Origin: Bacteroidota bacterium
GTDB lineage: Bacteria > Bacteroidota > Bacteroidia > Sphingobacteriales > Sphingobacteriaceae
NCBI GenBank assembly: GCA_018828585.1
Contig: JAHJVW010000075.1
Span: forward strand, 1-47,706
Length of the DNA stretch: 47,706 nt
Direction of reading: 5' to 3'
Positions 23,586 to 31,253 of the stretch are shown piece by piece; positions within the stretch are counted from its first letter, which is position 1; each line of letters starts with the position of its first letter. The notes under the pieces were generated by a model that did no database searches, was not told the DNA's origin, and saw only the letters and a program-made list of their open reading frames with translations. A program made the position numbers and the translations under genes.

Positions 23586-23604
23586 AAATTAACATATAAA
23601 ACAT

Positions 23605-23648
23605 ACATAAGAGCTCATGATTTAAATCATGGGCTCTTATGTTTTTTT
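23605..23648 (+). terminator. Terminator of the DUF6600 gene
   Basis: ACATAAGAGC and GCTCTTATGT form the outer stem around CATGATTTAAATCATG, followed by seven T residues. The stop codon of the opposing NIPSNAP gene lies inside the T tract, so the element separates convergent transcripts. Confidence 0.85.
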
Positions 23649-30515: not shown

Positions 30516-30734
30516 TTAGCTAATAAACTCTTTAAAAGTCTTTTCTTCGTCAAAATCGTTTAAGATTAATTCAATATGATGATCATTTATAATACCAATT
30601 TTAGAAAGCAGGTTAAATTCACTAGATAATTCATTCTTATTAAAATAGCGGTTATAAATGATGCCAATTATATCGGCAATTCTAATTTCAAAATTATTAT
30701 GAGATTCAAGAAATCTTAAATTTTCATATATCAT
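30516..30734 (-). CDS. Small uncharacterised protein downstream of the ORF6N gene
   Basis: 72 residues, acidic, no signal peptide or membrane segment. It has FEIRIADIIGIIYNRYFNKNEL and an acidic C-terminus (LILNDFDEEKTFKEFIS). I do not recognise a family. Its ATG overlaps the ORF6N stop in ATGA, so the two are translationally coupled. It could be a partner of the ORF6N protein or a leftover of its C-terminal region. Confidence 0.5.
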   Translation of the reverse strand: MIYENLRFLESHNNFEIRIADIIGIIYNRYFNKNELSSEFNLLSKIGIINDHHIELILNDFDEEKTFKEFIS

Positions 30735-31120
30735 TTTAATGTTAATCTTTTTTTTCCTTCTTGAGAAAATGTATATTTTTTAATAAGAATGATTATCATC
30801 CCAATTGCTTTATCGCTATTTAAAACTCCAGAAAGCATAGCAACACCTTGTTCTGTAAAAGCTTTAGGCATTTTTCTAGTTCCTCCCCAACTTGATGTTC
30901 CATTTTGGAATATCAAGTTTTTAAATTCTTCTTCGTTTAATTGGAACATGAAATCATCAGGAAAACGTTTAATATTTCTGCTTACCGCTTTATTAAGATT
31001 TCCAGTGCTTACCTGATAAAGTTCTGCTAAATCTTTATCCAGCATTACATTCTGCCCTCTTATAAAATGGATTTTATTTACCACAAACTCTTCAGGTAGT
31101 TTTGTTAAGTCGTTACTCAT
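30731..31120 (-). CDS. ORF6N-domain DNA-binding protein, possibly truncated
   Basis: About 129 residues from the ATG at 31120 (MSNDLTKLPEEF). The ORF6N domain is clear: VNKIHFIRGQNVMLDKDLAELY, VSTGNLNKAVSRNIKRFP, EFKNLIFQNGTSSWGG and KAFTEQGVAMLSGVLNSDKA. The region after SDKAI, usually a conserved VNIxIMRxF-type helix, is replaced by GMIIILIKKYTFSQEGKKRL, so the C-terminus looks altered. ORF6N domains are linked with phage and mobile DNA and bind DNA. The frame is open upstream to 31180, but that part runs through a palindrome and is unlikely to be coding. Confidence 0.7.
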   Translation of the reverse strand: MSNDLTKLPEEFVVNKIHFIRGQNVMLDKDLAELYQVSTGNLNKAVSRNIKRFPDDFMFQLNEEEFKNLIFQNGTSSWGGTRKMPKAFTEQGVAMLSGVLNSDKAIGMIIILIKKYTFSQEGKKRLTLK

Positions 31121-31148
31121 AGTGCTTGAATACCTAAATATATTTAAA

Positions 31149-31185
31149 GAAAATTGGATATCACAATTTGTGATTTCCAATTTTC
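31149..31185. promoter_or_regulatory. 37-nt near-perfect palindrome upstream of the ORF6N gene
   Basis: GAAAATTGGATATCACA and TGTGATTTCCAATTTTC are 17-nt arms with one mismatch and a 3-nt centre. It lies 28 nt upstream of the ORF6N start codon. The position suggests an operator, perhaps for the ORF6N protein itself. Confidence 0.6.
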
Positions 31186-31215
31186 AAAAACCCTTTTAAA
31201 CAGCAAACCCTTACT

Positions 31216-31253
31216 GTCCCATCAGGGTCTCTCGCAGAGGACCCCGATGGGAC
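31216..31253. repeat. 38-nt palindromic element inside a kinase remnant
   Basis: GTCCCATCAGGGTCTCT pairs with AGAGGACCCCGATGGGAC (one mismatch, one bulge, loop CGC). It resembles short palindromic repeats of related genomes. It is GC-rich against an AT-rich background, and kinase-like coding stops exactly at its edge. Confidence 0.65.

Follow-up and report, generated by a model that had tools for sequence, protein, structure and literature searches.

The window analysed here is a stretch of 47,706 nucleotides (nt) from a Bacteroidota bacterium of the family Sphingobacteriaceae (contig JAHJVW010000075.1, positions 1–47,706), in which a near-perfect palindrome lies just upstream of a gene of the ORF6N family and a second palindrome lies within the coding sequence of that gene. 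An earlier note on this DNA had interpreted the upstream palindrome as an autoregulatory operator. Comparison with other ORF6N genes revealed that palindromes are maintained inside the coding sequences of this family and that their letters follow one residue of a predicted helix-turn-helix (HTH) recognition helix, termed X below, by which genes and sites are classed as Q type, K type and so on. Genomes, contigs and loci are designated by G, C and L numbers, respectively. The features of the locus are as follows.

31149–31185, no strand assigned: upstream palindrome, Q-type ORF6N half-sites TTGTGA/TCACAA, 17/18 pairs
30731–31120, minus strand: ORF6N gene (PF10543), 129 amino acids from the ATG, C-terminus shorter than in relatives
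30977–31009, minus strand: predicted recognition-helix codons (STGNLNKAVSR), residue X being Lys44 at 30989–30991, from helix alignment and the model of L072
30889–30919, minus strand: internal palindrome AACTTGATATTCCAAAATGGAACATCAAGTT, K type, encoding NLIFQNGTSS, 13/15 pairs
31135–31142, minus strand: candidate −7 promoter box TATATTTA (prediction only), lying 24 nt beyond the centre of the palindrome
30516–30734, minus strand: open reading frame of 72 amino acids, overlapping the ORF6N gene at its end; no family match exceeded the cut-off

Membership of the encoded protein in the ORF6N family was clear from its match to PF10543, which covered the whole domain (residues 1–86) with an E value of 6e-35 and 119.8 bits against a cut-off of 27.8. 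The upstream palindrome, GAAAATTGGATATCACAA-T-TTGTGATTTCCAATTTTC, consists of two 18-nt arms (31149–31166 and 31168–31185) and a 1-nt centre. The 37-nt near-perfect palindrome of the earlier note, given there as 17 + 3 + 17, is the same element as 18 + 1 + 18 with 17 of the 18 pairs paired, and the distance of 28 nt to the ORF6N start codon (31118–31120, minus strand) was exact. Dyads of 17/18 pairs were absent from 200 first-order Markov shuffles of the window (expectation 0.0). For dyads of at least 16/18 pairs the shuffle expectation was 0.015, and the window holds two, the second at about 23624; this second long near-perfect palindrome (23599–23648, 17/18 pairs, no spacer) is unlike the upstream palindrome in sequence. 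The whole upstream palindrome was found once in the 3.58-Mb host genome with up to 3 mismatches allowed, and its core, TCRCAAWTTGYGA, three times, all at ORF6N genes, namely in the window and at a second ORF6N gene on contig C13 (one copy upstream and one intragenic); the reversed control pattern was found once.

With its core CA...TG, its arms kept by compensation and its position at an ORF6N gene, the upstream palindrome has the make-up of the ORF6N-type sites described below. It is probably functional, because the Q-type site is retained at the same locus in the relatives G005 (L303) and G014 (L308). In G014, the syntenic ORF6N gene (L308, 2110–2180) is mostly gone, its N-terminal half having been lost; the upstream Q-type and internal K-type palindromes survive there, with centres about 40 nt apart. 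The reading of 31149–31185 as an intrinsic terminator was rejected, the arms being A+T-rich and no T run following directly on either strand of the printed sequence, as was a reading as an RNA element, for which Rfam gave sub-threshold matches only and no G-U excess was seen. A promoter consensus of TAnnTTTG/TTTG in a −7/−33 arrangement is described for Bacteroidota in the accessible text of PMC7366714, which also states that Flavobacterium johnsoniae yielded no −33 motif. Given TATATTTA as the candidate box, the ATTG/TTTG of the palindrome centre would fall near −33. Among 35 upstream sites of the family, a TAnnTTT[GA] box follows 10, so the overlap of the palindrome with a promoter-like region is suggestive only. 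Between the palindrome and the FkbM gene lies a hairpin-like repeat around CCCATCAGGGTCTCTCGCAGAGGACCCCGATGGGAC (31211–31249), which matches many places in the same-genus genomes G001, G003, G011, G014 and G017 and is thus a palindromic repeat dispersed within this genus.

Palindromes inside ORF6N coding sequences

The gene set comprised 80 relatives from named genomes, 66 ORF6N matches from the 60 nearest genomes and the two genes of the host genome. At the codons for [LW]xxQxxTS, a palindrome was present in 81 of the 82 genes measured, with a mean of 13.3 of 15 pairs as against 6.35 under synonymous resampling, whereby codons were redrawn 400 times among synonyms at local usage; in this measurement L013 was missed by the pattern and the wrong copy was taken in L041. 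The observed pairing was reached by at most 4 of the 400 redraws in 76 of the 81 genes and by none of the 400 for the internal palindrome of the window. A position-free statistic applied to 148 genes gave p ≤ 0.01 in 122 loop intervals, compared with 5 of 148 and 2 of 147 control intervals. The arms diverge between genes yet change together, as in TTGAGG/CCTCAA, TTGGAGG/CCTCCAA, CTAAGG/CCTTAG and GGTAT/ATACC. Moreover, the internal-site DNA is translated in two frames, giving SQ[FI]V in 153 genes and [IV]TNCD in 8 (among those with at least 10/12 pairs). Because synonymous resampling fails to yield the palindrome and the same DNA occurs in two reading frames, the internal palindrome is kept at the DNA level, and protein conservation alone is insufficient as an explanation.

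In most genes the internal palindrome lies some 60–90 nt past the helix codons, and the loop of some genes (L201, L177, L173, L185 and L041) holds two or three of them. Genes with an internal compensated palindrome are spread over many phyla. Of 148 genomes sampled from the phylum, 39 encoded the ORF6N domain, and 4 of 50,697 phage records contained a relative, none of them annotated. Tandem full and partial ORF6N copies were seen at L167 (G048:C5), L148 (G055:C46) and L149 (G032:C100). In a group of long ORF6N proteins (L061, L063, L065, L070, L073, L078, L082 and L084), the C-terminal stretch bears a possible likeness to a PLD-type domain.

A code linking recognition helix and site

Residue X of the second HTH helix (L-x-X-x-V-x-R-N) sorts ORF6N genes by the letters beside the core of their internal site. 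Read outward from the centre, the half-sites are TTGTGA for Q, TTGGAA for K, TTGCGA for E and TTGGCA for R, and the three genes with X = L have TTGAAA or ATGAAA in common. The window gene conforms, its K helix (NLNKAV) agreeing with its own internal site TTGGAA/TTCCAA; a search of its genome for further K-type sites gave this internal site and one 1-mismatch match only, the control pattern giving one match. The rule was derived from 136 of the 148 genes, 12 being skipped. When 181 of 183 genes were typed (L148b and L039 being without an anchor), both arms agreed with X in 73 of 78 Q, 35 of 36 K and 37 of 39 E genes.

Held-out genes were predicted well by the same rule. For viral genes (35 loci, 31 with a helix by pattern, near-identical pairs L205/206, L211/212, L233/234 and L235/236 included), the left half-site was as predicted in 30 of 31 and both arms in 29 of 31. 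A further held-out set consisted of 48 loci, 45 from the phylum genome draw and 3 viral, in 44 of which the helix could be anchored, X being Q, K, E or R in 43 of these; here at least one arm agreed in 40 of 43 and both arms in 34 of 43, with L298 (anchored on the wrong residue) and L283 (best dyad off the loop) counted as failures.

The code could be resolved to individual helix positions. When 84 protein columns were compared for association with the two letters beside the core (2.05 bits), n8, which is X, gave 1.67 bits and n11, one helical turn away, 1.42 bits; the next-best column, n7, reached 0.49 bits and all others no more than that. The next base inward (d3) is set by n4, Arg going with C:G in 195 of 196 genes and Asn or Ser with A:T in 6 of 7, and n12 is weakly linked to d7–d8 (203 of 226 genes, those with a dyad of at least 10/12 pairs). 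In an AlphaFold model of L072 (predicted local distance difference test score 72), an HTH is present and the code residues fall on or at the start of helix 32–41. Gln–A, Arg–G, Lys–G and Glu–C are classic contacts between side chains and bases; the code is close to them, and they fit it.

The correspondence also shows at synonymous positions about 25–30 codons from the helix. In Q genes, the Ser that precedes Gln is encoded by TCA (68 of 69); in E genes the codon is TCG (35 of 35) and in R genes AGC (9 of 10). For a Gly, K genes use GGA (34 of 34) and R genes GGC (20 of 21). Loops read in the alternative frame, with quite different amino acids, follow the same code (Q helix in L184, L186, L193, L218, L225 and L228; E helix in L229 and L288), and alternative-frame R genes follow it in the right arm (L271, L278 and L289). 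A tree from which helix and loop were excluded was built for 161 genes, the remaining 20 of 181 being dropped because flanking sequence was lacking; X changes on it at least 63 times. On its supported branches, independent pairs went in the same direction in 10.8 of 12 cases for Q, 7 of 7 for K and 9.9 of 10 for E, and in the opposite direction in 0. L014, which has a Q helix and is otherwise like the K-type L011, carries one arm of each type. Since the code extends to synonymous codons, to alternative frames, to tree-independent pairs and to the mixed arms of L014, neither co-evolution within the protein nor shared descent suffices to explain it. In a few genes (L285, L291, L294, L246 and L247) the helix ends in KNN or RNN instead of KRN, and the core is AAATTT or similar, not CAAATTG.

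Promoter-proximal and dispersed sites

Palindromes were also found upstream of ORF6N genes, where 35 sites in 29 of 179 genes, set against 0.0 in shuffles, establish that the promoter-proximal copies are real. The earlier note had proposed looking for the dyad of the window upstream of other ORF6N genes, and in these 29 genes a palindrome of this kind was present there. The strict motif TTGANNTNNCAANTTGNNANNTCAA had 39 sites in 23 of the 60 related genomes, and its reversed pattern had none in all 60. ORF6N domains contained 28 of the strict sites, 5 lay upstream and 6 elsewhere, so that 33 of 39 were inside or just upstream of ORF6N genes; occurrence at many loci lacking such genes, which according to the earlier note would speak against its reading, was thus confined to 6 of the 39. 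Intergenic sites of G013 (two), G008 and G012 have a common flank (TATGTGTTGGATACTTTGATATC...) and look like a dispersed element. At L139, L141 and L142 (in G013, G008 and G012, respectively), ORF6N-type palindromes stand alone between genes, the two in G013 being 5.4 kb apart. At L022, three ORF6N-type palindromes, two of Q type and one of E type, are arranged in a row 34–98 nt before the ATG of an E-helix gene.

The type of an upstream site was compared with the helix of the gene that follows. A match in at least one arm was seen for 15 of the 35 sites, and Q-type sites accounted for 9 of 15 at Q-helix genes versus 10 of 20 at others (Fisher p 0.73), which rules out upstream sites as general operators for the protein of their own gene. 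The window is itself a case of such a mismatch, its upstream palindrome being of Q type (TTGTGA) and its own helix, NLNKAV, of K type (predicted TTGGAA). Hence, the autoregulatory operator of the earlier note was only partly right: by its sequence the palindrome is a putative operator of the ORF6N family, and the "auto" part is not supported, because the site is of Q type and the K helix matches the internal site. The palindrome is probably read by a Q-type ORF6N paralog. Two Q-type ORF6N copies are located on C13 of the host genome; the frame of one is interrupted, and the other is a fragment.

Proposed mechanism, alternatives and known systems

It is considered likely that HTH-containing ORF6N proteins bind cognate intragenic palindromes by means of the helix code and that the promoter copies are mostly Q-type operators acting in trans. 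ORF6N proteins would recognize a palindrome of roughly 30 bp with the core CA...TG, one face of the second HTH helix setting the letters: n8 together with n11 would specify d4–d5 (TG for Q, GA for K, CG for E, GC for R and AA for L), n4 would specify d3, and n12 would weakly influence d7–d8. That each protein binds, presumably as a dimer, the site in its own gene is very probable, because the code held on unseen genes, withstood the phylogenetic control in the Q, K and E classes and extends to the choice of synonymous codons. If every ORF6N gene carries its own cognate palindrome in its coding sequence, helix and site would therefore stay linked and travel together. The internal site would serve negative autoregulation, the bound protein blocking the elongating RNA polymerase whatever promoter the mobile gene lands behind. 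The further promoter-near palindromes, present in a minority of genes and mostly of Q type, would be operators on which a Q-type ORF6N protein acts in trans, that is, elements of cross-regulation. For the window, the upstream palindrome would accordingly represent a Q-type operator and the K-type protein would read 30889–30919, a site within its own coding region as expected of an intragenic operator.

Several observations weigh against this mechanism. The 6 strict sites lacking an ORF6N gene are intergenic, and the types of the upstream sites are not those of the adjacent helices. Since the Q-type paralog of the host genome has a broken frame, production of the protein that reads the upstream palindrome may have ceased. 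A near-perfect internal palindrome persists in a decayed ORF6N copy (G013, L309); regulation alone would not require this. In the R class, both arms were as predicted in only 16 of 26 genes (right arm 23 of 26) and the tree test was not significant, with 4 pairs. L187 (R helix, TCG internal site) and L292 (Q helix, TTGCAA) break the code. In structural comparisons, the L072 model had no significant fold match in the PDB (best E 0.28), and a PDB sequence search likewise gave no relative, its one match having an E value of 0.17.

Autoregulation at the promoter, with the ORF6N protein of the window binding 31149–31185 and repressing its own promoter, would account for a site over a candidate promoter, for the conservation of the palindrome at the same locus in G005 and G014 and for the matching upstream sites of several Q-type genes (L168, L183, L015 and OWN2); with a K helix facing a Q palindrome and own-type matches at 15 of 35 upstream sites only, it is judged unlikely. 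The internal palindrome could instead be a DNA target for recombination, serving either to shuffle specificity cassettes or to spread the gene in a homing-like manner. This stays a rival because decayed copies keep the palindrome and cassettes look exchanged: L006 and L046 are alike in N- and C-terminal protein sequence and differ in helix and loop together. The tandem ORF6N copies of G048 and G055, similar at their ends but not in the middle, the frequent changes of X on the tree and the several in-frame palindromes per gene point the same way. Against it, no recombinase or nuclease domain was found in the window protein, the code ties the site letters to the ORF6N helix itself and promoter-proximal copies exist, so that a recombination target in place of an operator is regarded as quite improbable.

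The near-perfect inverted repeats lie in the transcribed strand, and an mRNA hairpin acting in attenuation or as an RNase site might maintain them in place of DNA binding. Non-Watson–Crick pairs were, however, GT/TG in 18 cases and AC/CA in 44, which gives no excess of wobble pairs (in a count made without a codon-based null), and the letters follow a residue of the HTH helix; a hairpin is accordingly thought to be very improbable. A dispersed palindromic repeat that is merely tolerated in ORF6N loops would suit the intergenic strict sites, for which three genomes have one common flank, as well as the multiple copies in some loops. The location of 33 of 39 strict sites at ORF6N genes and the helix/site code both contradict it, and we likewise give it very little credence.

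Beyond binding of cognate intragenic palindromes, it appears somewhat probable that the ORF6N gene is a self-contained, horizontally mobile cassette, with helix and cognate operator within about 120 nt, whose specificity switches jointly and whose paralogs cross-regulate. If so, each ORF6N gene would bring its capacity for self-sensing and self-limitation into any new genome, and its paralogs could form cross-regulating networks through the promoter copies, an extreme form of regulator–operator linkage. The protein stretch LRSQ[FI]VTS owes its conservation largely to the DNA that encodes it. ORF6N is a widespread domain; for it the result offers a putative DNA target, a residue-to-base code and, for most genes, site prediction from sequence alone.

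No DNA site for ORF6N was found described in the literature searched, which included the accessible part of PMC10111431 and left subscription papers mostly outside, so that an earlier description is possible. By its Pfam score, the window protein is a member of ORF6N (PF10543), one of the families in the ORF6N/KilA-N/Bro-N network of phage regulators. A palindromic site in the gene of its own binding protein is known from parS inside spo0J/parB and from the intragenic operator of PurR. However, parS hardly varies, unlike ORF6N sites, which change with the helix, and the protein families differ. Rickettsia palindromic elements are in-frame palindromes inserted in coding sequence; they are spread over many genes, in contrast to the strict ORF6N sites, which cluster at one family and co-vary with its helix. 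C.Kpn2I binds inside its own coding region, where it stalls RNA polymerase and blocks elongation, as set out in the accessible text of PMC6237814. Unlike ORF6N it is a restriction–modification controller for which that text mentions no family-wide helix/site code, and binding has been demonstrated for C.Kpn2I and is deduced here for ORF6N; with a site inside its own coding region, as in ORF6N genes, it is the best precedent for the internal site.
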